Below, piece by piece: positions 7,880 through 61,500 of a stretch of DNA of 64,000 nt. Position 1 is the first letter of the stretch. Each line of letters opens with the position of its first letter. The notes under the pieces were generated by a model. It worked only from the letters and a program-made list of their open reading frames with translations, had not been told where the DNA came from and made no database searches. Position numbers and translations under genes: made by a program. The stretch is from Candidatus Poseidoniaceae archaeon (lineage in GTDB: Archaea; Thermoplasmatota; Poseidoniia; Poseidoniales; Poseidoniaceae). The stretch is from the NCBI GenBank assembly GCA_949372875.1, contig CASIAW010000011.1, positions 1 to 64,000 of the forward strand. The letters run 5' to 3'.

Positions 7880-8785
7880 CTACTCACTTGCGGTTGTTGC
7901 GTGTTGTTGTTGTTGTTGCGCTGGGGTGTCGTTAAAGCCGCCACCGTAGTAGTTATTTTGTTGATATCCAACATCTTGTGGATGGTGCCCATAATGGTTA
8001 TTGCCGCCATAGTATCTGCCGTTGCTTCTACCGCCGCCACCGCCGGAACCCCCTCGGAGAAGCAGGACTCCTACAAGGCCTAAAACCACTAAAACGCCGA
8101 AGCATCCGACAATGAATAATATCGACCCACCTGCGGAAACATCGTCATCTGCTTGCCCATTGAGCATGGGGCCCGTGGACCAATCTTGCTGTTGCTGTTG
8201 CTCTTCCCCAGGAGGTTCGACCCACTCATCGTTTTCATACCAGAAATCATCTATGCTCCAAGATAAATCTTCAACCAGGGGGTACAGGGCATTCGCCCAG
8301 TCTCCAGCAGCCATGTCCTCATCTACTGAGTCGGGAATTCTGTCATACCACTCGTCGAAGATATACCGATATTCTTCCTGCCAAAAGAGTCCATATTCGT
8401 AACTCCATTCCCAGGAACCAGTTTGGTTTATCGCAAGCACAATTAGCACCCCGTCTTTCCATTCTTGATTACCAACGCCCCACGCATCAAACAATTGAAT
8501 AGTGTATTGTGTAAGCGACATATTCGTGTCGTTTTCGGTCGTATAGTTATCCGTTGACTCAATGAGCACGACAACAATATCAGTCCCCCATTCATCAGAC
8601 AAATCGATTGAAAGTTGTTCCAATTCCTGAGATTCTGTCAAATTGAGAACACCGACATCGTCTATAACAAATGAGTTATCATCGACCGGATATGTTATTT
8701 CAGCGGCTATCGTTGAGGAAAAAAGAAACAAACTAGCAACAAGGGCAGTCATGAAAAGTCGGAGAGTATTTCGCTTGTAGAACAT
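7880..8785 (-). CDS. TPM-domain (YgcG/Psb32-like) secreted membrane protein
   Basis: An N-terminal signal peptide is followed by a TPM domain (about residues 30-160), with the typical opening DDVGVLNLTESQELEQLS, a GTDIVVVLIES strand, and the later WGVGNQEWKDGVLIVLAI motif. A linker ending in a Gln run and a single membrane helix (about 225-250) lead to a Gly-rich tail. TPM proteins act outside the membrane in assembly or repair of membrane complexes; some are phosphatases. The frame closes soon after a CAA-encoded Gln run, while another frame carries a long Gly/Ser/Arg tail, so the annotated C-terminus may be artificial. Confidence 0.8.
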   Translation of the reverse strand: MFYKRNTLRLFMTALVASLFLFSSTIAAEITYPVDDNSFVIDDVGVLNLTESQELEQLSIDLSDEWGTDIVVVLIESTDNYTTENDTNMSLTQYTIQLFDAWGVGNQEWKDGVLIVLAINQTGSWEWSYEYGLFWQEEYRYIFDEWYDRIPDSVDEDMAAGDWANALYPLVEDLSWSIDDFWYENDEWVEPPGEEQQQQQDWSTGPMLNGQADDDVSAGGSILFIVGCFGVLVVLGLVGVLLLRGGSGGGGGRSNGRYYGGNNHYGHHPQDVGYQQNNYYGGGFNDTPAQQQQQHATTASE

Positions 8786-9964: not shown

Positions 9965-12415
9965 TTATGCTGGCATTCTTCCACGAAGGCGCAGCCACGT
10001 TTCACTTCCAAACATGAGAGCATACAGCGAAGCCAACCACAACGTTGGGCGACTCCATTCTTCTAGAATGCCTGTTGAAGCACTTGAATTTTCACTTCCA
10101 AGTACTAAAAGAACGCATAGCCAAGCCATTGTTATGCCGTGAAGTGACCAGCGTAGCCCCGACATAATATCGGTAGAATTCGAACGCATTTCAGTCACCT
10201 CAACATCCGTTAAAACGGCTGAAACACCAACCAACTTATCCAAGGCCGATCCACCGTTCCAACGAATCCTCCCGAGTCTGAACCGATTGAGGACTTCAAT
10301 GCCCGTGAAGAGCGTAATCCACACGACGACAACCTCGAGTAACGGCTCTGCACCAAGTAAGTCCAGAGAACCCCATGTCGCCCATACTAAAAGACCCCAC
10401 AACCATCCAACAAGAATGAGTTGGAAGGCCCGAGCAAATCGAGTTAACCGCTGCAATAATACAGCATCATGGGCAAGTAAATGTTCCAGGGTAATGACCA
10501 GCCCAGTAACCCCAGAAAGTCCAACCGAGACCAAAAGCCACCACCAATCTAAATCCCCGTCGCGCCAAGCAAACATGAGTGCTACGAGCGTCCAAGCCAG
10601 AGTCACAACAGATGCTACGTTTACAGTCGCCTGCATTGTGTAGAGTGGGTCACGGCCGTCTTTCAAAACTGCTAAGCCACCCATTAATCGAATTTCGAAT
10701 GCAGAATCATCCACAATACCGTGCGCAGCTGCAGTCATCCCACCTACGGCTTTCATTCTCGCAGCACCGACAATACTTTCAGCGTCTCCAATCGCCCATT
10801 CTTCATCGATGCCTTTTGTATTCCAAGACGAACCTCGGCTCGCTGCATGTGCGGCGCCAGTACCTCGGTTTTTGGTATTTCCAGCAGATCGAGTTTTTGC
10901 CCATGCTCGAATTTCGTCTGACATTATCTCCTCAACCTGGTCTTCGTTGAGGGGAGCGCCGTGATCAGTATACAACCATCGACACTGAATTGGAACCGGC
11001 GCAGGGTCTACGTCGGGCGCCACCATTTGGAATTGACCAGGGCCCAGCGTTGGTAGTTGAGCAACGAGGTCTTGATCACCACCACTTTCCTTTAGCAGAT
11101 GGCGAACTTTTTCGACATCTTGGGGTTGAGTGAATCTTCCAATAAAGGTCGTATTTGCTTGAGCGAGAATTTTGTAATCAACATCGCTCACGTTTTGCGT
11201 GGCAAGAACACATGCTACCCCATATTTCCTGGCTTGTTTGAAGATAAGTTTGATGAGGTCTTTTGCTGGAGGGTTTCGAGGATGCGGTGGAAGATATGGA
11301 GCGACCTCATCCATAAAGAAGAGAAGTTTGATTTCTCCATCTGCGGGTTGCTGAGTCAACATCCAATCATACAATTCACGGGACAATTCTTGGACAAAAT
11401 ATTGCTTTTGAGCTTCATCCTGAATCGTGTTGAGATAAACAATGTTCAGAGGTATTTTCCCCGGCATTGCAGGTTCTACAAATGCATCAATATCGATGGG
11501 GACTCCATTTGAGAAAAGTAGTTGGTTGACGCCCGAGGAATAGGCTGAGAGCCTCCTCGCCAGATCGTTACGTGTTGTTTTTGGCAAACGCTCTTCGAAA
11601 TCTGTCAGCCGATGTTCTACCATTACCTCTTCCCACGGGGGCACATCAGGCTTTTCTTCTCCCTCTTCCACTTCGTGGAAACATTCAGGATACAACTGTC
11701 GAGTGAACTCTTGATTTGGTTCTCGAACCACACGGGCCAAGGCTTGGAAATCTCCAACATTCAACCCATGCTTCGTCCCCTCGACAAGGATTTCATAGAG
11801 GAATGGTTTGACAACTTTACCTTGCGCTTTTTCAACATCATATCCTGCAAGGCTGGTAAATCCTGCCGCCACCATATCCCACGCAGTTATTGCTTCTTCA
11901 GCATCGAGGTCTGCTGGAGGAGCGCGGAATGGGTCGATGCAAAGCGGCAATCCTTTGCTTCGTAACGGCGTCCATATTCGCACTTCACACATGTCCAGCA
12001 ACTTCTTTGCTCGAGAAACATCTCCATCTTGCTCTTCAAGATCTACTGGGTCTATTCCGAGTGCGAGGCGTGCAAGATCGCCTTGAGGGTCGATAATTAG
12101 CGAGGGAATTTTTGCTAAAGCAGCCTCTTCAATGAGTGCCTTGGCCATGACTGTTTTTCCTGAACCTGTCGAACCGAGCATGGCAGCGTGACGTGCCAAT
12201 ACCATAGGTTGGATATCGATAGGCTCCCCAGTATCTCTTCTTGTTCCGAGAAACAACCCCTTTGGCTTGAATTTCTTCTTTTTGGGTTTGACAGATTCAA
12301 TTGGTTGCTCTACAACCGGGGAGTCTGGAGAAAGAATATCGCCGACTAAATCCGCTAGACTACGTTCCTCGGCGTCCACAATGTCGTCATCCAAACCCTC
12401 GTTTTCGGACACCAT
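9965..12415 (-). CDS. HerA/FtsK-like ATPase fused to a C-terminal membrane domain
   Basis: Residues about 50-490 form a DUF87/HerA-type hexameric ATPase. Walker A GSTGSGKT is at 81-88, Walker B FFMDE at 366-370, and LATQN at 404-408 is the sensor-like motif; DPQGDL follows the first strand as in HerA/VirB4 relatives. A hydrophilic Arg/Gly-rich linker (about 505-560) leads to about 220 residues with roughly six hydrophobic helices (from about 597). Soluble HerA partners NurA in DNA end resection; a membrane-fused version suggests a DNA or protein pump at the membrane instead. No nurA neighbour is present. The gene is divergent from an aminotransferase. Confidence 0.82.
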   Translation of the reverse strand: MVSENEGLDDDIVDAEERSLADLVGDILSPDSPVVEQPIESVKPKKKKFKPKGLFLGTRRDTGEPIDIQPMVLARHAAMLGSTGSGKTVMAKALIEEAALAKIPSLIIDPQGDLARLALGIDPVDLEEQDGDVSRAKKLLDMCEVRIWTPLRSKGLPLCIDPFRAPPADLDAEEAITAWDMVAAGFTSLAGYDVEKAQGKVVKPFLYEILVEGTKHGLNVGDFQALARVVREPNQEFTRQLYPECFHEVEEGEEKPDVPPWEEVMVEHRLTDFEERLPKTTRNDLARRLSAYSSGVNQLLFSNGVPIDIDAFVEPAMPGKIPLNIVYLNTIQDEAQKQYFVQELSRELYDWMLTQQPADGEIKLLFFMDEVAPYLPPHPRNPPAKDLIKLIFKQARKYGVACVLATQNVSDVDYKILAQANTTFIGRFTQPQDVEKVRHLLKESGGDQDLVAQLPTLGPGQFQMVAPDVDPAPVPIQCRWLYTDHGAPLNEDQVEEIMSDEIRAWAKTRSAGNTKNRGTGAAHAASRGSSWNTKGIDEEWAIGDAESIVGAARMKAVGGMTAAAHGIVDDSAFEIRLMGGLAVLKDGRDPLYTMQATVNVASVVTLAWTLVALMFAWRDGDLDWWWLLVSVGLSGVTGLVITLEHLLAHDAVLLQRLTRFARAFQLILVGWLWGLLVWATWGSLDLLGAEPLLEVVVVWITLFTGIEVLNRFRLGRIRWNGGSALDKLVGVSAVLTDVEVTEMRSNSTDIMSGLRWSLHGITMAWLCVLLVLGSENSSASTGILEEWSRPTLWLASLYALMFGSETWLRLRGRMPA

Positions 12416-12506: not shown

Positions 12507-13607
12507 ATGGAGCGTATTCCGATGGCCCGACCATCTTGGGATGAAGAAATGCGTGCAGCAGCCATCGCTACACTGGACTCGGGACAATGGGTCAAAGGCG
12601 CACGAGGGGCAGCCTTTGGCTTGGCGTTTGCAAACCATTGCGGAGCACTGGGGGCGGCGCCTTGTCAGAATGGGTCATCTGCACTATGGGCGGCCCTCCG
12701 AATCGCAGAAATAGGGCCGGGAGACGAAGTGATTGTACCGTCTTTCACCTTTATTTCCTCGACAACATGCGTACTCTTGGTTGGTGCAAAACCTGTTTTT
12801 GTCGATATCGAGCCTGAGTACTATTGCTTAGATATTGAACAGGTTCGACAAGCGATTACACCACGCACAAAGGCGGTAATAGGCGTTCATCTGTTCGGCC
12901 AAGTTTACGATTCAGAACTTGTAGAATTATGTCAAAAAGAAAACATTGTGTTGATCGAGGATGCAGCACAAGCCCATGGTGCAACGCAAGAATTCCAAGA
13001 CGGGAGTATTCGAACTGCTGGTGCTATGGGCGACATTGGCTGTTTCTCTTTTTTCCCTTCAAAAAACATGGCGGTTGGAGGTGAAGGAGGCATGCTTACG
13101 ACTATACAACCACGTTTTCAAGACCGTATTGTTGGAATTACAAACCATGGGCGAAGCCCCGATCTCGAGGCTATCCAACTAGGAAGCAACCTTCGCATGT
13201 CGGAAGTTTCTGCCGCAATCGGCCTTTCACAACTCTCTCATCTTGATGACTGGGTAGCCCTGCGTAGACAAAACGCAGAGCAGTATACGAACGCTCTTAC
13301 AAATCACCCCTCACTCAACGCCCCAAAGGTTCGCCCTGGTTCGCAGCATGCATGGCATCAGTACTGTATTCAAACTTCAGAGCCAGATAAGTTCGTCACA
13401 TTCCTCGATGAACGAGACATCGACGCACGCCGCTATTACACAGTGCCGTGCCACAGACAACATGTCTACAGTAAGCATCCACAATTCACGACAACATTAG
13501 CGGAAACAGAAAAAGCGTCTTCATCCTTGGTCGCCATTCCTGTGATGCACGGCCTCACTTTTTCCGAGCGCCAACGCATCGTCGAAGCACTCATTGAATA
13601 CGACTGA
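12507..13607 (+). CDS. DegT/DnrJ/EryC1/StrS-family aminotransferase
   Basis: A PLP-dependent sugar aminotransferase (about 366 residues, normal for the family) that converts keto-sugar nucleotides to amino sugars. Signatures: the IPMARPSWDEEM opening, NGSSALWAAL, the EDAAQAHGA motif with the PLP-binding Asp, and FSFFPSKNM with the Schiff-base Lys at K186, then GEGGML. I start at the ATG of MERIPMARP (12507). The frame is open farther back, but the earlier ATG at 12414 overlaps the divergent HerA start and adds a basic, unlike-family N-terminus. Probably serves surface-glycan synthesis; other glycan genes lie at 17593-20438. Confidence 0.9.
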   Translation: MERIPMARPSWDEEMRAAAIATLDSGQWVKGARGAAFGLAFANHCGALGAAPCQNGSSALWAALRIAEIGPGDEVIVPSFTFISSTTCVLLVGAKPVFVDIEPEYYCLDIEQVRQAITPRTKAVIGVHLFGQVYDSELVELCQKENIVLIEDAAQAHGATQEFQDGSIRTAGAMGDIGCFSFFPSKNMAVGGEGGMLTTIQPRFQDRIVGITNHGRSPDLEAIQLGSNLRMSEVSAAIGLSQLSHLDDWVALRRQNAEQYTNALTNHPSLNAPKVRPGSQHAWHQYCIQTSEPDKFVTFLDERDIDARRYYTVPCHRQHVYSKHPQFTTTLAETEKASSSLVAIPVMHGLTFSERQRIVEALIEYD

Positions 13608-13608
13608 T

Positions 13609-14175
13609 TTACGGCCAACCGTTGCGGGCAAGGCTTGAGTTTGACCATTGATGTAAACCGGTAATCTCCTCACCAATCCATTCTGGAAGCGATACGGGGA
13701 ATTCTTCGTTCGGAAGTTCAACTTCAGCTAATATTAGACCTGTTAAAGGCCCCTCAAATTCATCGACCTCCCACACCATTCCATCGTTTCCTCTCCAATG
13801 GTATCGCGTTTTAGAAATCGAAGGGTGCGATTTCGACCCACTGATATTCTCACCCAATTCCCGGTCAATTTCCCATTCCAATTCTAGGGCAGCGGAATGG
13901 GTTCGTTTTCCTTTCAAAGTCAAGTGTACAGAATCTTGAGTGAACCGAATCCGAGTAGTCCAATCATCAGTTTTTTCAAAGAGTGATTTTTCCTCACCAT
14001 TCATTTCGATGAGCATCAAATTGCCCGCATAAATAAGTTGATTTTCATGATTGGTGAAGAGAGCAGAATCGAGATATTGCTGAGTGATATTTGACTGATA
14101 TTCACAATCCCTCCACGGCCTTACCCTTTTCTTTGAGATGATAAACCGGCGTTCAATTTCCATATATTCGCTCAT
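13609..14175 (-). CDS. CYTH-domain protein (class IV cyclase / triphosphatase fold)
   Basis: It begins MSEYMEIERRF, a form of the ExExK/R signature that opens the CYTH triphosphate tunnel, and its 188 residues fit a single domain. Later alternating charged strands (TRIRFTQD, HLTLKGKRTH, ELEWEIDREL, VWEVDEFEG) match the eight-stranded barrel with inward-facing Arg/Lys/Glu. CYTH proteins hydrolyse inorganic tri- or polyphosphate or thiamine triphosphate, or make cAMP; archaeal ones are usually called triphosphatases, but the substrate is not shown by sequence. A start at the ATG four codons later (14163) is equally possible. Stop-to-stop with the aminotransferase. Confidence 0.8.
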   Translation of the reverse strand: MSEYMEIERRFIISKKRVRPWRDCEYQSNITQQYLDSALFTNHENQLIYAGNLMLIEMNGEEKSLFEKTDDWTTRIRFTQDSVHLTLKGKRTHSAALELEWEIDRELGENISGSKSHPSISKTRYHWRGNDGMVWEVDEFEGPLTGLILAEVELPNEEFPVSLPEWIGEEITGLHQWSNSSLARNGWP

Positions 14176-46126: not shown

Positions 46127-47857
46127 ATGAATAAGAAAATAATGAGCGTGCTAATTGCAATGTTCCTTGCTCTCTCTGCAGTTTCTGCAGTGAGCGGTGA
46201 CGGATCTGACCCACTCGACCCATCTGATGGTGGCGCCGATTGGGACGGTGACGGTCTCACCAACTCCGAGGAACAGAACCAAGGCACTAATATGAACAAT
46301 GCAGACAGCGATGGCGACGGTCTCCCAGATGGCTGGGAAGTCTCGAACGGCCTTAACCCAACTAATGGTGGCGACGGTAATGCAGACCCTGACGGCGATG
46401 GTTTAACCAACGCCCAAGAGTATGCAGCGGGTACAAACCCGAACAACTCCGACACCGACGGCGACGGTAAGGCTGACAACGTTGACTCGTTCCCGAACGA
46501 TCCGAACGATGGTGAATATTCCGACTCCGACGGTGACGGTATCCCTGATGCTTACGACCCTGACTTTACCGAGTCAGGCGCAGGCGCAGGCGATGGTGGC
46601 ACTGAAGGCGGTGGCGAATCTGATGCCGGAGCTCAAAACCCACAACCAGGTCAAGGACAAGGTCAAGGACAAGGTCAAGGACAAGGTCAAGGACAAGGTC
46701 AAGGACAAGGTCAAGGACAAGGTCAAGGACAGGGTCAAGGACAAGGTCAAGGACAAGGTCAAGGACAAGGTCAAGGACAAGGTCAAGGACAGGGTCAAGG
46801 ACAAGGTCAAGGACAAGGTCAAGGACAAGGTCAAGGACAGGGTCAAGGACAAGGTCAAGGACAAGGTCAAGGACAAGGTCAGGGACAACAAGGTCAGCAG
46901 GGACAACAAGGTCAACAAGGCCAGCAAGGTCAACAAGGCCAGCAAGGTCAACAAGGCCAGCAAGGTCAACAAGGCCAGCAAGGTCAACAAGGCCAGCAAG
47001 GTCAACAAGGTCAGCAAGGTCAACAAGGTGAACAGCAAGACAATGGACAAGGTCAGCAACAACAAGGTGGCGAACAAGGTGGTCAACAAGGCCAGCAAGA
47101 AGGTCAAAACCAAAACGGCGAAAACCAAAACGGTCAGAGCCAGCAACAACAAGGTCAAACCCAAAACGGTCAACAAGGCCAACAGGGTCAACAGACCGAC
47201 CAACAACAACAACAGCAAACCGACAACCAGGGTCCTGCCGACAACGACGGTGACGGAATTCCAGACAACATTGATAATGACAACGACAACGATGGTATCC
47301 CCAACGATGTCGATGACAATCCAAACGACCACGACAACGACGGAATTGACGATGCTCTTGACAGTGATGATGACGGCGATGGAATCGACGACTCTGAGGA
47401 AACTCAAGACGGCGATCCAAACACCAACATCTACGACCACGACAACGACGGAATCACAGATTCCGTTGACCTCGACATCGACAACGACGGAATTGACAAC
47501 TACAATGATTGGGAAGATTCGAATGGTAATGGTATAATGGATGCTGGTGAAGACCGCAGCCGTGACCACGACAACGATGGCTCTGATGATGGAGTAGATA
47601 CTGATGACGACAACGACGATATTCTCGACGTTGACGAAGTTGGTGGAATCTCTGGAAACTACCGCTACGACCACGACAATGATGGAATTTGGGACCTTTC
47701 CGACACAGATGACGACAATGACGGCCTTGCCGACTGGTTCGAAGTCAATGACGGCAACCCAATGACCGGTCAATTTGATCACGACAACGATGGTCTCGAT
47801 GACAACGAAGATGACGACGACGATGACGACGGCATTCTCGATGAACTCGAAGCTTGA
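46127..47857 (+). CDS. Secreted calcium-binding protein with (GQ)n/(GQQ)n linker
   Basis: The 576-residue protein has a signal peptide (about 1-24). Residues about 35-150 carry thrombospondin-3/EF-hand-like repeats (SDGDGLPDGWE, DPDGDGLTNAQE, DTDGDGKADNVD). About 175-300 is a pure Gly-Gln stretch (39 GQ, then 16 GQQ), followed by a Gln/Asn-rich part. The last 200 residues are Asp-rich DHDNDG and DDDNDG repeats typical of calcium-loaded rods. There is no C-terminal anchor or sorting helix, so it is probably released or held through Ca2+. The next gene carries the same DHDNDG repeats, which suggests the two proteins work together at the surface. Confidence 0.88.
   Translation: MNKKIMSVLIAMFLALSAVSAVSGDGSDPLDPSDGGADWDGDGLTNSEEQNQGTNMNNADSDGDGLPDGWEVSNGLNPTNGGDGNADPDGDGLTNAQEYAAGTNPNNSDTDGDGKADNVDSFPNDPNDGEYSDSDGDGIPDAYDPDFTESGAGAGDGGTEGGGESDAGAQNPQPGQGQGQGQGQGQGQGQGQGQGQGQGQGQGQGQGQGQGQGQGQGQGQGQGQGQGQGQGQGQGQGQGQGQGQGQGQGQGQGQQGQQGQQGQQGQQGQQGQQGQQGQQGQQGQQGQQGQQGQQGQQGQQGEQQDNGQGQQQQGGEQGGQQGQQEGQNQNGENQNGQSQQQQGQTQNGQQGQQGQQTDQQQQQQTDNQGPADNDGDGIPDNIDNDNDNDGIPNDVDDNPNDHDNDGIDDALDSDDDGDGIDDSEETQDGDPNTNIYDHDNDGITDSVDLDIDNDGIDNYNDWEDSNGNGIMDAGEDRSRDHDNDGSDDGVDTDDDNDDILDVDEVGGISGNYRYDHDNDGIWDLSDTDDDNDGLADWFEVNDGNPMTGQFDHDNDGLDDNEDDDDDDDGILDELEA
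46649..46882 (+). repeat. In-frame 12-nt minisatellite, (GQ)39
   Basis: The unit GGTCAAGGACAA is repeated about 19.5 times and encodes 39 Gly-Gln pairs. A CAG-for-CAA variant marks higher-order blocks: the variant recurs at 46730, 46790 and 46838, that is 60 and 48 nt apart, and 46681-46740 is identical to 46741-46800. The array has therefore expanded recently in blocks of four or five units. Confidence 0.95.
46883..47026 (+). repeat. In-frame array encoding (GQQ)16
   Basis: Directly follows the (GQ)n array. The 9-nt unit Gly-Gln-Gln is repeated 16 times, mostly as an 18-nt doublet of GGTCAACAA and GGCCAGCAA. It keeps the reading frame and extends the disordered linker of the calcium-binding protein. 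Confidence 0.93.
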
Positions 47858-48108: not shown

Positions 48109-51100
48109 ATGCTCTCAAAAACACAATTAGAAAACATAAGCCAACGCCAGAAGCTCACAATGTCATTGACAATCGTCGTCTTGATGTTGACCAGCACAAT
48201 GCTTGCCATTGTTCAAGACGTGAGTTCAGAAGAAACGATGCCTAGTGTCGTATTCAGAGAAGGGGAAAGAATTACACAAACTTCTGCCCAGTCTACTGAA
48301 CAAGGCGGTCAAGGTTCATGGATAGGCAGTCAAGATGCTTGGCAGCTTGAAGACCACCCCGTTCTTTCAGACATCATGTGGACCGACCCCGGTGTCGCTT
48401 CAGGAATCATCGCCGACCGTGCTGCGATTGAAGCAATCATGCCTTATTTCTCAACGCTCCTTGAGGAGTCAAATAAAGACGATCACGACAACGATGGAGT
48501 CAGTGACCTTTACGACTTAGACGATGATAACGACGGAATTTACGACCTTCTTGAGCGATTCGACGGCTGTTATGGAACCGATCCGTTTGATCATGACAAC
48601 GACGGTATCTTGGATGCCGTAGATTGGGACGACGACAATGACGGAATTCTTGAAGGCCCAATTGATGTTCCAGCACTTGAAGCACTCGGACTTGATCCGC
48701 TCAATGTGAGTACTGACCGACGACTCGACCCATCAATTATCCACCCTTGGACAGGTCAAGCAGTCGGGGCATTCTACCTCGCAGATCAAAACCCAATGGA
48801 CCACGACAACGACGGGGTTACTGATGAAGATTCAGATGGCTCAGGTCCTGGAAGTTATGATGAAGACGACGATAACGATGCACGAATCGATCAATTCAAG
48901 TGGCCTTGTGATCTAGATAGCGACGGAATCCAAGACTACTTCGATACTGATGACGACGGCGACGGGGTTGTAGATATTGAGGACATTCATCCATATGATG
49001 CAACTCAAACAACATCCATGTCCGCTTCGAGCAACCTTTACGATACCGCCGTTTCATGGGATTTCAACTCATACCGAGAATATTCTGGTGGCGTCAATTT
49101 CCTCAATGAAGAACTCAACAGAGTAAACGCCCCTGGAAACACATCCAGTGGCTGGATTGGAAACCCGAATGCAATGGGGCCAAACGGAGTTGCCTCCTTC
49201 ACAACCATTGTTGATGGGGATTTGGACGGAGACCTCATTCCGAACTTCCTTGACCCAGATAACGACAATGACGGCACCCCGGACAGCGCAGATACTGATG
49301 ATGACAACGATGGAATCCTCGACATGGTCGACCCGGATGATGACAATGATGGTATTCCGGATGTTTGTATGAACCTCGACATGAACGCCGACAACAAAGG
49401 CGATTATGACAACACAATTCTCAACGGCGTGGCTTTGAGCCTCGATGCCTCTTCTCTTGCAGGTGGGCAGAACTATGTTGCTGCAAATGGCGTTCAAACC
49501 TCCGCAATCAATGGCATGGGTATGACCGTCGACATCACTGTTGATAGTAACGGCGAGATACTCACGGCAACTTTGGTATCAGGTGGCTATGGCTACTCAG
49601 TTGGCGACGATGTCGCAATCCTTGGTGGTAACTCTGGCGGTGCGATTATTGTTTCAAGCGTCAGTACAGTCAACTTCCAAATCCCTGGCGGGGATGGCGA
49701 TAACGACGGCACCCTCGATTGTGAAATGGATTATGACCAAGACCTTGACGACGATAGATTAAGGCCATTTGACCAGAACTACAACGCAGTTTACGATTGG
49801 CTCGACCCTGACATGGGTGGCACGCCAACTCCGGACAACCTTGGTGACATCTCTGTGAGCGGTGACGCAAATAACTTTGAATACGATTCCGACGATGACC
49901 AAATTTCGAACGAAAACGACTCATTCCCTCTCGACAAGGCATCCGATGTTGCCTCTTGGAATTGCCCAACACTCGCGAATCCAAACCCAGTAAATCCAGA
50001 CTCTCGATGTAACACTCGCCGAGCATCTTATTCTCAATTCAACGATTGGGATGGCGATGGAATCAACAACTGGATTGACGTTGATGACGACAATGACGGA
50101 ATCATTGATGCACTCGATATTGACTGGGATTGCGATTTTGATAACGACGGTGACCTCCACGCTATCAATGGTGCACTTTACAGAGACGACGGCCCAAACT
50201 CGGTAGACTCCGATATTGATGGCGACGGTCTTGAAAATGACATTGATTGGGACGACGATAACGATGGAATTTCCGACTATTACGATCCAGACGACGGAAA
50301 TTGCGGCGTTGTAGATTTTGATGCGAATGATAACTTTGCCTCGCCATACTACCCTGTAGCAGATGGCGGCAACCTCGACGGAACCCAAGACAGTACGCCA
50401 TACTCCGACAACTCTACAGACCATTGGAACCTCGTTTTCTGGCACAATCCGTTTTCCGATGTTGTACTTGATTACAACGGATACGACGCAACCACAACAC
50501 CAGTAACGCCGGGAACAGTCCCAGAATTTTACTGGTTCATGTTTGCTCGCTGGTCCCCTTACAACGGCGGTAACGATTGGGATATCGATGCGGATGGCGA
50601 TTCGCTCACCAATGGATTAGACATCGATCAAGACGCTGATGGGATGCCCGATTGGTGGGATCAAGACGAAGGTAACGACGGCGTTCTCGACATTAACGAT
50701 CTCAAAATGGGAGGCTCGTTCAACCTTACCACATGTGGCTGGACTGCTGGAAACATTGCAAGCGGCTACGTATGTGGTTACAGCTATGCGCTTGCTTATC
50801 ACATGCCATTGAACGGTGTTAACGCCCAATTTGGCTCACCCTATTCGACTCGCCCGGACGCTTATATTGACCAAGGCCCTACGACTGGTGGACCTTCAGG
50901 AAACTGGAGTTGCAATCCAGGAGCTCAAGGTGGATGTTGGCACTATGACTTCGGCGGTGACGGTTCGGTAGAATCTGGCATTACCTTCACACAAATGCAG
51001 AACAATCGCGACGCCTTCGTTACTTGGTTTGGCCTTTCAACTGGAATTTGGCAGTGGACTTCTGACAATGGGCCCGTCGCTGACTTCCCTGACGAACTCG

Positions 51101-54100
51101 GCGCTGACCTCATCAAGAACCACCTTGATGGCGACGTTGATGGAGATTTTACGAACATGACGGTTGATCTTGACAATGATTACGATTCAGTTTACGATTG
51201 GTATGATGTCGATGACGACAACAACGGTGTTTGGGACTACTTCGAAATTGATACTGATGATGACCTTGACAACGATGCGAATCAAGAAAACGCGAACTTC
51301 TTCAGCGGCCTAAATTGTGCTGATAATGACGACGATGGAAACGATGCAGACGTAGATGAAGACGGTTTCTTCCAAGCAGTTTGGGACCGTGGGATTTTGT
51401 CTCAAGGTTTGATACAACCAACGCTTTACGACGTTGACAATGATAACGATGCAGTTCCTGACGCAGAAGACCCTGATGATGATAATAACGGAATCCCTGA
51501 TTCGGTTCAAGAAACGTTACCAAATTGTTTCTGGGGCGAAGAGCAACATCCATTTGACCACGATAACGACGGAATAGTTGACTGGGCAGACGATGACTGG
51601 GACGCTGACGGATTGTCGAACTCAGTCGAATTAGCAATTAGCCTCACAGCAGCCTTCGACCACGATAATGACGGAGAACGCGACGATATCGATACAGATG
51701 ATGACGAGGATGGTATGCTTGATGATGATGAAGTCATTCTCTGGCCTACCCGCTTCAACCGTAACTCAACAAATCCTTGGGACCACGATGACTTCGGAGA
51801 TGGAGAAGGGCTTGCAAACCCACTCGAGCCAGGAACAGGGCCTGATGCAATCGACAACGATGATGATAACGACACATTTGTTGATGCTGATTATGATCAC
51901 CTAGAAGAAGGCGAAACCGGATTTGCCTGCTATGCCGGTGCAGAATCTAGCGACTGGGATCACGACAACGACTGCGTACTTGATGAAGATGACAAGGCAC
52001 CGACCTTTATCACGCTCAATTTGCCAGATACACTTTGGCTCGATGCTCAATCTCCCTCCATATTCAGCGGCCACGTTGATTGGGTTAACCCCGTTTCAGG
52101 ACAATTTGAGCCTGCAGTCGGACTCCCAGTTCAAGTTCATATCGAATGGGCAGATAATGGAACACTAGCATTGGAAACAATCAACGTATTGACCTCTGCA
52201 GTTGGTAATTTCACTGTTGGACAATTCCTTTACCCTGAAGATTTGACCGTTGGGGACAATACAACGTACAGGGTCTATGCAATCGTTACCGAAATGTTCG
52301 CTTTCAACGGCAATGAATCTCAATCGTATTACTTGGGCGCTGAAGCAAACCTCACCGCTGACATATACCTTGATAGCTACTTCCGAAGCGATGAACAACC
52401 GTTCTGGGTTGACATGTGGTCATATTATACCGCTGATTTGCAACGTGGTATCTTTGACAACCTTGTCCCAAACGTTCCATTCACTTTCTCCGTTCGCGGA
52501 GGAATCTTTGGAAACTATACTGAACCAACGAATTTCACCGGCCTTGGTGGAAACGGCTACCGGTCTGGAAGCAATGGTTTGGTTTCAGTAACCTTCGTAC
52601 AAGACATTGGCATCAATGGGTTGTGGAAGCAAATTCAATGGAACTCAACTCGAGATAATGGAGTTGGACAAATTCCAGGCGGATACGAAGAAGTTGCTTG
52701 GGATCCTCAAGACAAAGAACTCAAGCCACTGCTTGATGGACAGGGTGCAATAATTTCCTATGATTATACGAATACAAGCCTTCCAGCGGGTGATTATGAG
52801 GTAACGGCAGTAGCCCAGCCTGATTTGGCATCAGAGTGGCCATTCCCATACCTCCACGGCGATAGTACTGAACCTCAAGCAATTCGTGTCATGCACCGAA
52901 TGAACATTGAAGCTCAAATGATTGTTGAAGGAACAAATCCAGTGTATTGGTATAACTCTTCGATTAACAATGGCGATGGAACCTTTGGAAACTGGGCAAC
53001 AATTTACCATTCTGAAGCATTGGATGGAGCAAGTTTGAATTTCGCAGACATATCCAAATCCAAACCATATCCAATGAACTGGGACGGCAACCCTGCCACC
53101 CTCCTTGGTGAAGAGGCTCAATTACGCAACTTCATTTCGACCAATGCCACTCACTGGTTCATCACTTTGGTGAACGGTGGAGACAGCAATCTGCCGCCTT
53201 GTGGTGCAGTTGATTCGACAGACCCCGACAGTTTGGTTCGATGTGAAATCGTACCGGAGATGAACACTGGCGACACCCTCTACGTTACTGGTTCAGTTAC
53301 GAACCGAACCAATGTTCCTTGGGACGCAGACCCAATTGCTCTTCAAGTGGACATTGATGGTAACGGACAATTCCTCGGACAACAAGAAACAGCATACACA
53401 CAGCGACCTACCAAGGCTTGCCCAACCTGTGCTGCTGAGTTTGAATACAACTGGTCTTGGTATAGCCAATACGGTTCTGGAACCTATGGTATGCGTGTTG
53501 ACTTTACCAATTCAGCATACTACTTCACTGGTAACAGTTCGACGCTTGCTGCAACGGGTGCTTACATCAACGTTACCGTGGTGGGGACAACAGACTTCCA
53601 AACGACCTCCGTGCCTCGCCTATATCGTAACACGAGCACGACCATTCAAGCAAAGTTAGTTGACAACTCCTTACAACCGGTTCGTAATGTGCCGGTGAAT
53701 TATACGTGGTCAGCAGACGGCCGTACTGGTGTCAATTACACAGACGATAACGGATTCTTCGAGATACCATTTAATATCTCAGCTGCAGATTCATTGGGCG
53801 ACTTTAGTCTCCAATTCGAGTTTGCCGGAACGTCTTTACTCAAAGGCAATACAATGGTTCAGCAAGTTTGGGTTGTATCACGAACGTACCTCTCTGTAGT
53901 TTCTACTGATCCAAACCTCCGTCAGTCAGGTGATTTATGGGATTTCACAGCTCAAGTTACTGACGATAATACAACCTCTGTGCGAGATAGTGGAGGCGCT
54001 GCATTAGATGGTGCTGAAGCACCGAATGGTGGACTTGTTGATGTTATTTTCGAGGGTGTTGATTTCAACGGCGTGACACATCGCCAAATCGTAGCAACAG

Positions 54101-56259
54101 TCCGGCCATCTGCAGGCACAATTACACTGCCAGATGTTCAAGCAGACAAAGCCCACATGTGCTATTACGATGGTAACGGTGACGGAATTGCTGACCGAGA
54201 TATCAATCAAGACGGCATTCTTGACCGTTTGGAAACCAGTGGTATGTTCAATGGCGGAGCAGGATGTCTCAAAGCCGATATCGCCCCATTGAATGCTACA
54301 GCCCTCAAAGACGATCCAGAATCTTTCTTACCAGATGGATTTGGACCGGTCAATGTTATTCTCCGATTTGAGGAAACATTGCCAAATGAAGGCTGTGCAG
54401 AACTCGACCCAGTCGCTCTTGGAATCCAAGGGGCATGGGACTCTTGTCTCGGCGTTCCTGGAAACGATCACTTTAGATTGAAGATGACAAATAATGCAAA
54501 CGGGTTCTCTTTCATTGGACGAACTGCTTTGACCGTTGATGACCAAATCGTCTACACGAGCGAAGTAAGCCCAATAACCGGTGAAGTCATTCCTAAACCA
54601 ATGATTGTCACTGGACAGTTACAAGATGAATTAGGCACCAACTTGACCAACAGAAAGATACGTGTCAATTATGAGATGGTGAACAGCCAATCTAGCCCTA
54701 CATCTTGTAATTCTGGATTAACTGACCTTGATGGATATTTCTCTATCCAATGTCCTCTATCAGATGTTTCTGCTGGAAAAGCAAAGGTAACAGTTACCTA
54801 CTCTTCTTATGATAACAACGATGCATATCGATACCAGAACGACACTTATGAAACAGAATTTGACGTCTTCTCTAATTCAACATTAGCTTTGAACGAAGTC
54901 GGACCATTCAAGTCCAGTGTCGAGACATGGACAGCACCAAACACTACTGAATACCCGGTGCTTTACCTGAAGGAATCATTCCACGTTGATGCTAAACTGA
55001 TGCAATCCAACGGCCAATATGTCGGTGGAAAGTGTTTGAACATCTATCTGGACCCAGAACAAAACATTCGACCAATTTCAACAATTCGTACGAGTGAAAT
55101 TGACGGAACCGTTGAATGGTTTAGTGGCGATCCAAGTCAAAACCCAACACTCCGTGGCGTAGAAACTACTGGTGGAAAACTGGAAGGATTCCGCACACTG
55201 CGGGTTGCCTTTGAACCGGATTTGAATGTCCCAGGCGGCTGTGATAAAGATTCGTCCAACGTCTTGAATGGATCTTATGTTGACCAACTTGTCCTCGTTC
55301 GTTCACGAATTGATTTGCAAGTGAAGCAAACATGGAGTCACACCGGAGATAATGGATTGGATAATGAAGACCCAGTCATCGGTTCAATAGCCCTTCTTCG
55401 AGATCGTCTTGATCTTGCAGTTGAAAACGAAGAAGTCTGGTTTGTCCGCCAATATTGGTCTGATGAACTCAGTGAATGGGTCGTTGAAGGAACCAACAAG
55501 TCCCGGACCAACGAGCAAGGAATTGCAGACTTCGAGTGGCCGTTTGCAGGTCAAACCTGCGACGGAGTCGCTTGTACGGGCCAATGGCGAATTATTGCTT
55601 ATTACCCAGGTTCAACCTACTTTGAAGAATCACTCGACAATGTAACACACGAAGTCATATGGATGAAAGCAACTACAATCAGCGCTGATGCAGGATTCTT
55701 TACTCCTGCCAAGACGATGGCTTTCGTACTTGTTGCGATGGCGTTATTGATTGCTGGAGCAATTTACTATCAACGAGCACAAGCCCGTCGACAAGTGCAA
55801 GCTCTCAAGGGTATCTTGACTGATGCAATGATGCAACTTGAAGCCAGTAACGAATATATTGCAGCGATTTTCGATTGTTACAAGAATCTGGTCAAGCACT
55901 TCAAGCGATACGGCTTCATGAAGAAGGTCTACGAAACCACTCGTGAATTCGAGGCGGCTGTTCGTACTGCTTTCAACATGGTTCCTTCTGACCAACTTGA
56001 TGCATTCCTCTCCGTCTTTGAAGAAGCACGTTATTCGGATCACAACATCGATGCAAGCCATCGAGACCGAGCGTTGCAAACACTCGATGTTATCGTTCGA
56101 TCCCTCACCGTCGCTCTTGGCGAAGGGGGCATGGTTGAGCGCAAAGAACTGGTCAACCTGTATGACAAGCAAACGAAGGCCGGTGAATTCGTTGCAGCAG
56201 ATGGTTCTGTCCGTCAAGCTGGAATCGTCGAAGGCGAAGGCACAGATTTCAAGATTTGA
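48109..56259 (+). CDS. Giant calcium-binding surface protein with DUF4129-like cytoplasmic tail
   Basis: A 2716-residue protein with an N-terminal signal helix (about 18-38). Residues about 125-1300 contain dozens of Asp-rich repeats (DHDNDGV, DDDNDGI, DIDGDG) that bind Ca2+ in TSP3-like rods, interrupted by Trp/Gly-rich modules. Around 450-520 lies a SGGYGYSVGDDV-type beta repeat found in adhesins. About 1300-2520 are Ig-like and carboxypeptidase-regulatory-like beta domains (PVRNVPVNYTW, DDNGFFEIPFNI). A membrane helix at about 2538-2560 is followed by a helical tail of about 155 residues with FEEARYSDHNIDASHRDRAL, strongly like DUF4129. It probably forms a long stalk reporting or anchoring to the cytoplasm. 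Confidence 0.87.
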   Translation: MLSKTQLENISQRQKLTMSLTIVVLMLTSTMLAIVQDVSSEETMPSVVFREGERITQTSAQSTEQGGQGSWIGSQDAWQLEDHPVLSDIMWTDPGVASGIIADRAAIEAIMPYFSTLLEESNKDDHDNDGVSDLYDLDDDNDGIYDLLERFDGCYGTDPFDHDNDGILDAVDWDDDNDGILEGPIDVPALEALGLDPLNVSTDRRLDPSIIHPWTGQAVGAFYLADQNPMDHDNDGVTDEDSDGSGPGSYDEDDDNDARIDQFKWPCDLDSDGIQDYFDTDDDGDGVVDIEDIHPYDATQTTSMSASSNLYDTAVSWDFNSYREYSGGVNFLNEELNRVNAPGNTSSGWIGNPNAMGPNGVASFTTIVDGDLDGDLIPNFLDPDNDNDGTPDSADTDDDNDGILDMVDPDDDNDGIPDVCMNLDMNADNKGDYDNTILNGVALSLDASSLAGGQNYVAANGVQTSAINGMGMTVDITVDSNGEILTATLVSGGYGYSVGDDVAILGGNSGGAIIVSSVSTVNFQIPGGDGDNDGTLDCEMDYDQDLDDDRLRPFDQNYNAVYDWLDPDMGGTPTPDNLGDISVSGDANNFEYDSDDDQISNENDSFPLDKASDVASWNCPTLANPNPVNPDSRCNTRRASYSQFNDWDGDGINNWIDVDDDNDGIIDALDIDWDCDFDNDGDLHAINGALYRDDGPNSVDSDIDGDGLENDIDWDDDNDGISDYYDPDDGNCGVVDFDANDNFASPYYPVADGGNLDGTQDSTPYSDNSTDHWNLVFWHNPFSDVVLDYNGYDATTTPVTPGTVPEFYWFMFARWSPYNGGNDWDIDADGDSLTNGLDIDQDADGMPDWWDQDEGNDGVLDINDLKMGGSFNLTTCGWTAGNIASGYVCGYSYALAYHMPLNGVNAQFGSPYSTRPDAYIDQGPTTGGPSGNWSCNPGAQGGCWHYDFGGDGSVESGITFTQMQNNRDAFVTWFGLSTGIWQWTSDNGPVADFPDELGADLIKNHLDGDVDGDFTNMTVDLDNDYDSVYDWYDVDDDNNGVWDYFEIDTDDDLDNDANQENANFFSGLNCADNDDDGNDADVDEDGFFQAVWDRGILSQGLIQPTLYDVDNDNDAVPDAEDPDDDNNGIPDSVQETLPNCFWGEEQHPFDHDNDGIVDWADDDWDADGLSNSVELAISLTAAFDHDNDGERDDIDTDDDEDGMLDDDEVILWPTRFNRNSTNPWDHDDFGDGEGLANPLEPGTGPDAIDNDDDNDTFVDADYDHLEEGETGFACYAGAESSDWDHDNDCVLDEDDKAPTFITLNLPDTLWLDAQSPSIFSGHVDWVNPVSGQFEPAVGLPVQVHIEWADNGTLALETINVLTSAVGNFTVGQFLYPEDLTVGDNTTYRVYAIVTEMFAFNGNESQSYYLGAEANLTADIYLDSYFRSDEQPFWVDMWSYYTADLQRGIFDNLVPNVPFTFSVRGGIFGNYTEPTNFTGLGGNGYRSGSNGLVSVTFVQDIGINGLWKQIQWNSTRDNGVGQIPGGYEEVAWDPQDKELKPLLDGQGAIISYDYTNTSLPAGDYEVTAVAQPDLASEWPFPYLHGDSTEPQAIRVMHRMNIEAQMIVEGTNPVYWYNSSINNGDGTFGNWATIYHSEALDGASLNFADISKSKPYPMNWDGNPATLLGEEAQLRNFISTNATHWFITLVNGGDSNLPPCGAVDSTDPDSLVRCEIVPEMNTGDTLYVTGSVTNRTNVPWDADPIALQVDIDGNGQFLGQQETAYTQRPTKACPTCAAEFEYNWSWYSQYGSGTYGMRVDFTNSAYYFTGNSSTLAATGAYINVTVVGTTDFQTTSVPRLYRNTSTTIQAKLVDNSLQPVRNVPVNYTWSADGRTGVNYTDDNGFFEIPFNISAADSLGDFSLQFEFAGTSLLKGNTMVQQVWVVSRTYLSVVSTDPNLRQSGDLWDFTAQVTDDNTTSVRDSGGAALDGAEAPNGGLVDVIFEGVDFNGVTHRQIVATVRPSAGTITLPDVQADKAHMCYYDGNGDGIADRDINQDGILDRLETSGMFNGGAGCLKADIAPLNATALKDDPESFLPDGFGPVNVILRFEETLPNEGCAELDPVALGIQGAWDSCLGVPGNDHFRLKMTNNANGFSFIGRTALTVDDQIVYTSEVSPITGEVIPKPMIVTGQLQDELGTNLTNRKIRVNYEMVNSQSSPTSCNSGLTDLDGYFSIQCPLSDVSAGKAKVTVTYSSYDNNDAYRYQNDTYETEFDVFSNSTLALNEVGPFKSSVETWTAPNTTEYPVLYLKESFHVDAKLMQSNGQYVGGKCLNIYLDPEQNIRPISTIRTSEIDGTVEWFSGDPSQNPTLRGVETTGGKLEGFRTLRVAFEPDLNVPGGCDKDSSNVLNGSYVDQLVLVRSRIDLQVKQTWSHTGDNGLDNEDPVIGSIALLRDRLDLAVENEEVWFVRQYWSDELSEWVVEGTNKSRTNEQGIADFEWPFAGQTCDGVACTGQWRIIAYYPGSTYFEESLDNVTHEVIWMKATTISADAGFFTPAKTMAFVLVAMALLIAGAIYYQRAQARRQVQALKGILTDAMMQLEASNEYIAAIFDCYKNLVKHFKRYGFMKKVYETTREFEAAVRTAFNMVPSDQLDAFLSVFEEARYSDHNIDASHRDRALQTLDVIVRSLTVALGEGGMVERKELVNLYDKQTKAGEFVAADGSVRQAGIVEGEGTDFKI

Positions 56260-58583: not shown

Positions 58584-61500
58584 ATGCGAACTACTCGGGC
58601 CCTGTTTTTGGTGACTCTTCTTCTGCTAACTCCGCTTTCCCTTATGGCTGCACCAGCCATGGCTGCTGACACATCTGTTAATGCAGATACAACATGGTCT
58701 GGCGACGTCGTGCTTACCGGTAATGTCACAGTAATGAATGGCTCAACACTCACTCTCTCTCCCGGAACGACCGTCGATGGAGGCGATGGGTATTGGATTC
58801 GCGTCGACGGAACACTCGATGCATCGAATGCGTATTTTTTCTCTTCCCAAGTGCCTCTAACCAGTGGATCTCATGGAGCTGGTCTTTGGACCGGAATTCA
58901 TGTTGCGAACAAAGGGCATGCTGTTCTCAATGATGTCACTATTGAAAATGCCAAAACAGCACTCAAGGTAGAAGGGCAACTCTCGGCATTTAAGATAACG
59001 ATCAAAGATTCGTATATCGGTATCAATGTCATGGGTTCAGCGGATATCAGCACACTTACAGCCGAACATATCGATTATGAAGTAATACGAAACTCCGGCC
59101 ATCTCAATCTATCCTCAGGATCTTTCACCGATGTCGCTGGAGGGATTTGGTCAACCGGAACAAGTATTGTTGATACAGTCACAATTTCTCAGGCAGGAAC
59201 AGGCCTCCGTTCAACAAGCGGGACCCTTTCAGCAGTTGGCATTGGTTTCATTGACACAACCGTTGCTATTGCCAGTCAACGAGGTGCATCGACAACTGTT
59301 CAAAGTAGTACTGCAGACAATGTGGCTTTGTTTATTGATGCAGCAGATAGTGATGATTTATCCGTCTCTTCAGCCGCAGTTTCAGGGCATCGTCTCTTGC
59401 TTGCTAATGGTGCTACAGATTTCACAATAGAAGATATTGCCTTTGAAGGGCATCTTTCTGATTCACTTGCAGTGGTTGACCAAAGATGCGTAGGCACGTG
59501 CACCTGGAATGACCTCGACATCTCAAATACGAGCAATGGAATTGTTCTCTCAGGGCAAGGCAATCACTCCTTTTCCAGTTTGAACCTTTCAGTGACTGAC
59601 CGTGGAATCGAAGGGACAGGTGCTGGACACCTGCATCTGAATCACGTCAACGTTACCGCTGGAACCACAGGTATCGAAATGCGAGACCCAAGCAGTACCT
59701 TTGATCATGTATCCGTCGTAATGACATCTGTAACGCCGACAGCTCTTGACATCCTCGACGGCATACACCATTGGTCGTCAGTTTCTGCTTCAAAATCGTA
59801 TTCTGCTACCGATGTGGATTCAATTGGTTTGACTGCTTGGTATGCTAGTATTGAATCAACCACATTGACATTGCTTCATTTCGGTAACGGAATAGTGGCC
59901 GATCATGCTACACTTTCTGGTAATTCATATTCTGTCCAAGACGGGAAAGGAGCGGGCATTGATTTACAACACAGTTCCTTGACTGTTGACTCACTTTCCA
60001 CTCGTGCCTATCCCGAGGGTGTCTCTCTTACCAAAACCTCTCAACTCCACGTCTCTGATTGGACTGCTGCTACACACACGACTCCACTCTCTATCAGCAC
60101 GCAATCGACCGCAACAATTCGAAATTTCCAACCCCAAAACACCCAACCTTCCTCTTCGGACGCCTTAGGTGATGGAACGCTCATCTACGGTGGTTCGACA
60201 ACTGCAAACATTGCAGTCTCCTCCGCATCTTACCTTGAAGAAACACCCGTCACATTCACTGATTTGGCAGGAAATCCAGTAGAAGCATCTATTTCTGTTC
60301 ACGGCTTTTCTTTACAGAGTGACGCGAACGGAGGTGCTAGCCTCCCTCTTTTGAGCAGTGGCTCCTCAGTCGATGTAACTCTTGCTGGCGCTGGAGTACG
60401 CGTTGTTCTTTACGGCGCCCAAATTGGACAATCAGTCCAAGTTCCAGTGATTCCTCAAGGCGACTGGACCATCTCGACGGGACAATTTGTATTCCTTGGT
60501 CCACGGCCGGATGGCTCACCCCATTCAATGACTGGCGACCTCACCCTGTCTACAGGTAGTGGCTTGGAATTATCAGAAACATCACTTGTTCTTCCTGCAG
60601 GAGGGACAGTTGATGTTCAAGGTTCAGGAGAACTTACTGGCAGCGCCTCTTCACTCATCTCGGACAGCGTGTCAATGGGTATTGATTCCGTATTAACACA
60701 ATCAGATGGCGGCCAAGGGCTCACAATTGATGCGAACCTTACTTGGGTTTGCCAATCGACTCGTAGCGTCACGAATGTGGATATTCTCGGTTCTCTTCTT
60801 CTTCAACCTGGATGCTCCGTCGAGATGCTTGAAGGTGGTGTCGAAGGTTCAGTTACGGCTCTTACCAGTGCAGAATTAACCATTCTTTCTTCTCTCCAAC
60901 TGGCCGTCCTCGACAAAGGTGAACCCGTTCAAGGCGCCCTCATTTCTATTGATGGATCTGTTACGACAACCGACCTTAACGGCGAGGTTTCTACCACTGC
61001 CACAGCACGTTATGTGAACGATAATTCTCAAACCGTTGGAGGTATCAAGAACATCAATCTTCAAATCGGTTCGTTCATGGATTTCGTAACATGGGATTCT
61101 TCTACTTCCTTTGAATACACGTTCATGGCTTCAACAATCTCTCCAGGTTCTCTTTCAAGTTGGCTTGTTTTGGAGGCCCAATGGAGTCCGTATTTCCTTG
61201 ACGGAGATTTATCTGTAGAAGCCCTTGGTACACTCACGATTGATGACGGCGTCTCACTCCGTATCTCTGAAGGAGGTAAAATCAGCGTCGATGGCAGAAT
61301 CGATATTGGCGCAGCAACACTCTCCTCGACAGGCCTTGGTGCACGGTGGGGCGGTTTTGTGATGGGTGCTACGAGTTCGACCATTGATTTGTCACAGACA
61401 ACAATTGTCGAAGCTTCACCGGCATTGAACATCGAAAGTGAAGGCACCTTCGTGGGGGATGGAGTCACGATGGCTCGTTCATCCGGAGCAGATCCTTTGA

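Follow-up and report, generated by a model that had tools for sequence, protein, structure and literature searches.

What might an archaeon move, and across or along which membrane, with a HerA-like ATPase whose polypeptide continues into six membrane helices? This question is raised by a gene lying in bases 1-64000 of contig C11 (the window hereafter, that is the whole stretch of 64,000 nucleotides that was analysed) of a Poseidoniaceae genome of 2.16 Mb in 13 contigs, with a completeness of 94.9%. Near-identical loci occur in records of Poseidoniales and Poseidoniaceae (marine group II), and marine group II are the most abundant Euryarchaeota of the surface ocean.

A single gene with four parts

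The open reading frame comprises 816 codons, starts with ATG and is free of internal stops, a length that would remain open by chance with a probability of about 4e-14 given the frequency of stop triplets in the window. The same fusion is encoded in a single frame by 115 of the 137 matching ORFs at the loci of relatives (88 of them distinct), and the records that contain these fused relatives are numerous and independent, comprising both metagenomes and single cells. An artefact, in which two genes would have been wrongly joined by assembly or annotation, found no support even though the genome assembly comprises 13 contigs, and is refuted by so many independent single-frame relatives that we grant it practically no credence. 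The same relatives rule out a frameshift, which the first-pass annotation had considered as a way of assigning the C-terminal helices to a distinct gene, and they provide the fused architecture in other genomes for which it had suggested a search.

Four parts can be distinguished along the protein, namely a variable tail (residues 1-53), the ATPase, a linker and the membrane domain (residues 571-816; Table 1). In four pairwise comparisons, non-synonymous differences were lower than synonymous ones in all four parts, with pN/pS ratios, rough since these pairs are close to saturation at synonymous sites, of 0.02-0.07 in the ATPase (the most conserved part), 0.06-0.24 in the membrane domain (ranking second or close to it) and 0.24-0.47 in the tail (the least conserved). 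Promoters and terminators, sought with bacterial consensus sequences, were not above chance.

Table 1. Position of the fused gene, its parts, its neighbours and the carboxypeptidase genes of related loci (window coordinates unless a locus is named).
Feature	Position	Strand	Basis
Whole gene, HerA-like ATPase and six-helix membrane domain	9965..12415	-	816-aa ORF; same fusion in relatives
ATPase domain, residues 54-490	10946..12256	-	Pfam DUF87 and HerA_C above cut-off; phmmer to solved HerA-like ATPases
Walker A GSTGSGKT, residues 81-88	12152..12175	-	47-row alignment
Walker B LLFFMDE, residues 364-370	11306..11326	-	Conservation; alignment with solved HerA-like Walker B
RKYG, conserved Arg motif, residues 396-399	11219..11230	-	Conservation; alignment with 8wiv, 8xau
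Ala/Gly-rich linker, residues 491-570	10706..10945	-	Composition of 481-580; low pLDDT
Membrane helix 1, residues 590-618	10562..10648	-	AF2 domain model; hydropathy
Membrane helix 2, residues 624-646	10478..10546	-	AF2 domain model; hydropathy
Membrane helix 3, residues 651-681	10373..10465	-	AF2 domain model; hydropathy
Membrane helix 4, residues 690-716	10268..10348	-	AF2 domain model; hydropathy
Helix 5, cytosolic approach and membrane helix, residues 737-775	10091..10207	-	AF2 domain model; hydropathy
Membrane helix 6, residues 790-810	9986..10048	-	AF2 model; below hydropathy threshold
DegT/DnrJ aminotransferase, divergent neighbour	12507..13607	+	Pfam E 7e-102; adjoins in most Poseidoniaceae loci
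CYTH-domain protein, neighbour on same strand	13609..14175	-	Pfam 26.6 bits vs cut-off 23.2; position conserved
M14 zinc carboxypeptidase	L129:4164-5504		
M14 zinc carboxypeptidase	L192:5796-7136		
M14 zinc carboxypeptidase	L132:2426-3778		
M14 zinc carboxypeptidase	L143:1519-2778		

The ATPase and its relatives

The ATPase motifs, initially read as intact, are all present, and their key residues do not vary among the 47 rows of the alignment: G81-K87 is invariant and T88 nearly so, and K87, D369, E370 and R396 are likewise invariant. The RKYG motif aligns with GRKYG of 8wiv and 8xau, and its arginine presumably acts as an arginine finger. A HerA-like ATPase is well supported, as Pfam DUF87 (E 2.6e-11) and HerA_C (27 bits against a cut-off of 22, with the best stretch at residues 60-120) are matched above cut-off and solved HerA-like chains are matched by phmmer, best across residues 308-468 (E 2.5e-12). 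TrwB_AAD_bind (PF10412) also passes its cut-off (32.9 bits against 20.5), its best stretch being limited to the Walker A region (residues 70-114). The PADLOC HerA and mad8 models and the PHROG terminase large subunit (E 9e-16) match the ATPase as well, and several of the matching HerA profiles come from defence sets; the matches are confined to nucleic-acid or T4SS pumping families. The full-length AlphaFold2 model (pLDDT 52) was too poor in its ATPase part for use.

The name HerA proper, on the other hand, could not be retained. The P-loop occurs at residue 81, behind a poorly conserved and disordered tail, whereas it is found near residue 143-156, behind about 140-155 residues, in solved HerA-like chains, which match the P-loop region at 143-168 and 156-203, and 11 Thermoplasmatota comparators present about 90 or more extra residues ahead of it. 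The region of about 100 residues that precedes the P-loop in HerA, which we take to be the HAS barrel, is absent here. The NCBIfam equivalogs of HerA remained far below their cut-offs (NF040819, 31 bits against 970; NF040937, 30.8 bits against 800), and every NCBIfam equivalog cut-off was missed by a wide margin. The lack of a NurA partner, asserted from the window alone, extends to its whole genome (94.9% complete), where neither a NurA match (PF09376) nor a further DUF87 gene (E <= 0.01), and hence no separate herA-nurA pair, was detected. Because the region before the P-loop is missing and all HerA equivalog cut-offs failed, the fused protein, although predicted to pump like HerA and FtsK, is not HerA in the HerA-NurA sense.

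Comparison with characterized systems specifies these relationships. With HerA of the HerA-NurA system the protein shares a RecA-like pumping core bearing Walker A, Walker B and RKYG, which aligns over residues 308-468, but it lacks both the N-terminal region and the NurA partner and has a C-terminal membrane domain. Similarly, YjgR and the HerA_C family (DUF853) resemble it in the HerA_C match and in their early P-loop, residues 18-70 of 11kk corresponding to residues 66-118 here, whereas the match is restricted to the surroundings of the P-loop and the HerA_C profile has no membrane domain; in the membrane-free relative L121, residues 297-664 match positions 10-359 of that profile. FtsK/SpoIIIE belongs to the same superfamily and follows the same plan of a motor with membrane helices, but FtsK has four membrane helices at its N-terminus whereas the six found here are all C-terminal, and the FtsK_SpoIIIE profile stayed below cut-off (18.8 bits against 24). 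The T4SS models VirB4 (TIGR00929, 29 bits against 643) and TraD (TIGR03743, 21.1 bits against 366) and the CedB equivalog (NF041017, 25.7 bits against 700) were not reached either. In DNA import by Sulfolobales, a HerA/VirB4-like ATPase, CedB, works with a separate membrane protein of six or seven helices, CedA (PMC9905601). By analogy, this pair would be the nearest two-part counterpart of the fused protein, with two separate proteins there and a single chain here. The superfamily is a known one, whereas the fused architecture and the membrane domain match no model searched.

The linker and the membrane domain

Residues 481-580 contain 17 Ala, 13 Gly and 6 Arg, and the linker, formerly described as Arg/Gly-rich, is instead rich in Ala and Gly; pLDDT is low across residues 440-593 of the full-length model. 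For the C-terminal part, hydropathy and an AlphaFold2 model restricted to this domain agree with the six-helix membrane domain of about 220 residues recognized at first reading: the model presents six long helices with a mean pLDDT of 70.9 (block means mostly 70-92, lower at some ends) and a pTM of 0.67. Among 77 sequences, the outer loops are short and nearly devoid of Lys and Arg (means of 0.05, 0.43 and 0.81 per loop), against 3.0-7.6 of these residues on the cytosolic sides, and because these loop charges follow the positive-inside pattern, the predicted topology is N-in/C-in, with a cytosolic ATPase. The motif GGLxVLKDGxDPL is conserved just before helix 1.

A comparison of this domain with known channels, proposed as a check, named none. 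With a 12-row profile, no Pfam or NCBIfam family of any weight was recovered and no PDB chain scored better than E 0.3, and Foldseek searches with the model gave best E values of 0.51 (PDB) and 0.32 (viral models), none reaching 0.001. The top VIA-align score (Z 8.5) corresponds to a soluble helical metalloprotein, in a score range common for helical bundles, and XPR1 was aligned at Z 6.0 (197 aligned, rmsd 4.7). A known channel fold was therefore discarded as an assignment, since no Foldseek match reached 0.001 and the VIA-align scores were at helical-bundle level. The fold searches go no further than common helical packing and indicate neither kinship nor a new fold. Among the PDB matches CedA was not named either, a result that speaks neither for nor against a relationship with it.

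Distribution, neighbourhood and origin of the fusion

With fragments and standalone domains counted, the protein is matched in 126 of the 145 genomes of the window's own family (Poseidoniaceae), whereas most genomes of the sister family show neither the ATPase nor the membrane part. The membrane domain was detected in 145 of the 318 genomes of the order Poseidoniales and, in a search across the phylum, in 68 of 389 genomes, all belonging to families f1 and f2 of this order. Two records deserve caution: the sister-family genome G550 (L194), whose fused gene hardly differs from the one in genus g6, is probably misbinned, as is probably L083 (CALDQY010000057.1), a record titled Rhodobiaceae bacterium that carries the archaeal gene.

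The gene is embedded in a neighbourhood of DegT, CYTH and beta-propeller genes that is kept in most of the loci examined, DegT being missing in some genera, and this conservation bears out the chromosomal, non-mobile context assumed at the outset. Searches with the whole protein yielded 70 pattern matches and no relative in viral contigs, no match in a phage collection, and in plasmids 23 weak ATPase matches with less than 60% identity, none with 80% coverage; a viral, plasmid or phage origin was rejected on this basis. The CYTH protein was also considered as a co-inherited partner, an idea dropped because its profile was too insensitive, matching only 12 of 46 genomes and missing cases that tblastn had found. 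A TPM-domain protein with a Gly-/Gln-rich tail (7880-8785) is the second gene downstream of the ATPase and lies directly downstream of it in some relatives.

In the ATPase tree, all membrane-fused forms group in one clade (support 85/87). Their closest relatives without a membrane domain, L119-L121, belong to other Thermoplasmatota families, with a C-terminus formed by an unnamed region or zinc ribbons. The simplest account of these sequences would be a single fusion event no later than the base of Poseidoniales, in a weakly rooted tree: the root is a midpoint, and 10 of the 11 membrane-free comparators were dropped as the P-loop pattern missed them, leaving L209 as the sole distant outgroup. 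L119:5271-7412 and L120:2251-4329 share a similar-looking C-terminal region without Pfam match.

Membrane domains without an ATPase

The membrane domain also occurs by itself in two lineages. Four genomes of genus g20, which belongs to the sister family, encode it alone in open frames of 257-263 codons. Genus g5, a member of the window's own family, has in L132 (G014) a complete standalone gene of 364 aa, the only one shown to be complete in this genus, as those of G022 and G030 end at a contig edge and that of G004 is partial. The two groups nest at different places among the fused forms, and a single clade for all standalones was rejected in a test that left out G550 (p-AU 0.0003, to be read with caution given long branches). 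Selection on the standalone genes is purifying, with omega values of 0.03-0.04 in g5 and 0.27-0.37 in g20. None of the eight genomes with a standalone gene (about 80-85% complete) contains DUF87 at the Pfam cut-off, which 5 of 5 genomes with a fused gene pass, and no ATPase was seen at the ancestral beta-propeller neighbourhood of g5 and of G050. An M14 zinc carboxypeptidase gene adjoins the standalone gene in g20 as well as in g5, and in g9 such a gene lies some 3.2 kb away from the fused gene, a shared neighbour which hints that the ATPase half may have been lost in place in the standalone lineages.

Since the domain stands alone in two lineages, under purifying selection and in genomes devoid of DUF87 above cut-off, it must, on these comparative grounds, have a role of its own, more than that of a tether. 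The membrane-tethered motor proposed by the first-pass annotation thus holds as regards a motor-type ATPase fused to the membrane, but not as regards a mere tether.

A fused paralog and its operon

Diverged and rarer fused paralogs are present in three genomes (G091, G241, and G097). In G091 (L135), the paralog overlaps by 4 bp a gene of 185 aa, which itself overlaps by 4 bp a gene of 1198 aa encoding a helicase-nuclease with UvrD and PDDEXK_1 domains, and a weak GIY-YIG protein is encoded upstream. Through this overlap one branch of the fused proteins would be tied to DNA; known from one paralog in one genome, the predicted operon is the sole positional tie to DNA and bears on the paralog rather than on the window gene. 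A conflict or defence island could be represented by the operon (L135:1127-11048). The genes directly upstream of the paralog in G241 and G097 (L117:2394-3125 and L134:2807-4264) encode homologous proteins (31.6% over 95 residues, E 8e-11) without Pfam match.

Possible function

The reading that we favour, with a probability of about 0.45, is that of a membrane-held, ring-forming DNA translocase of the FtsK/HerA superfamily whose membrane domain would dock or channel the substrate, both the substrate and the pore being putative. The ATPase would form a hexameric ring as its relatives in the superfamily do, so that six cytosolic motors may be ringed beneath some 36 membrane helices. Hydrolysis of ATP would thread the substrate, most likely double-stranded DNA, through this ring at the membrane, where the membrane domain may dock, gate or channel it in addition to anchoring the motor. 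FtsK works in this manner, with its membrane domain at the N-terminus instead. Such a motor is favoured by the matches of the ATPase, confined to pumping families for nucleic acids or T4SS, by the invariant motifs, the low pN/pS of the ATPase, the positive-inside helices and the single fused clade, and by the operon of the G091 paralog. Counting against it, the membrane domain persists in eight genomes without DUF87 above cut-off, suggesting that the motor is dispensable for the function of the domain there, most of the sister family lacks both parts, and the CYTH and DegT neighbours are uninformative on DNA.

It is possible, if doubtful, that the membrane domain itself does the work, as a channel, transporter or receptor, and that the ATPase serves as a switch or assembly platform which gathers six copies of it and gates them by ATP, by analogy with HerA rings and their Sir2, DUF4297 or NurA-like effectors. 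The standalone genes of g5 and g20, their two separate places in the tree, their purifying selection and the lack of DUF87 above cut-off in all eight genomes argue in this direction, as do the HerA profiles drawn from defence sets; yet the ATPase is the better conserved half in 4 of 4 pairs, almost the whole family has the gene, in conserved synteny, unlike a patchy defence module, and no fold match names a channel. A motor for protein or peptide secretion, of the kind represented by VirB4/VirD4 and further T4SS ATPases, appears unlikely. In its favour, TrwB_AAD_bind passes its cut-off, albeit with the best stretch confined to the Walker A region, and VirB4 and CedB give weak matches far under theirs. 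Against it, the VirB4 and TraD equivalog or subfamily cut-offs are missed by more than 300 bits, and the neighbourhoods examined contain no secretion partner, their synteny consisting of DegT, CYTH, and beta-propeller genes. A bolder and quite improbable version of the DNA translocase would make the protein a one-chain machine for DNA import or export, uniting motor and channel for the first time in the superfamily, with the channel half kept as a standalone pore where the motor is lost.

In the literature covered, outside of which most subscription papers lie, no HerA-like ATPase with C-terminal membrane helices was described. Should the DNA translocase prove right, abundant ocean archaea would keep a core membrane-bound DNA motor outside any family model, its membrane domain being known from no other group, which would bear on the movement of DNA across or along the membrane in uncultured marine archaea. 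Its two defined parts, naturally separable in two lineages, form a testable pair.

Other features of the window

Elsewhere in the window, a 12-bp repeat recurs about 20 times in an ORF of 576 aa (46127-47857), together with further 18-bp repeats (46648-47028), and two very long ORFs are found on the plus strand, at 48109-56259 (2716 aa) and 58584-63269 (1561 aa).
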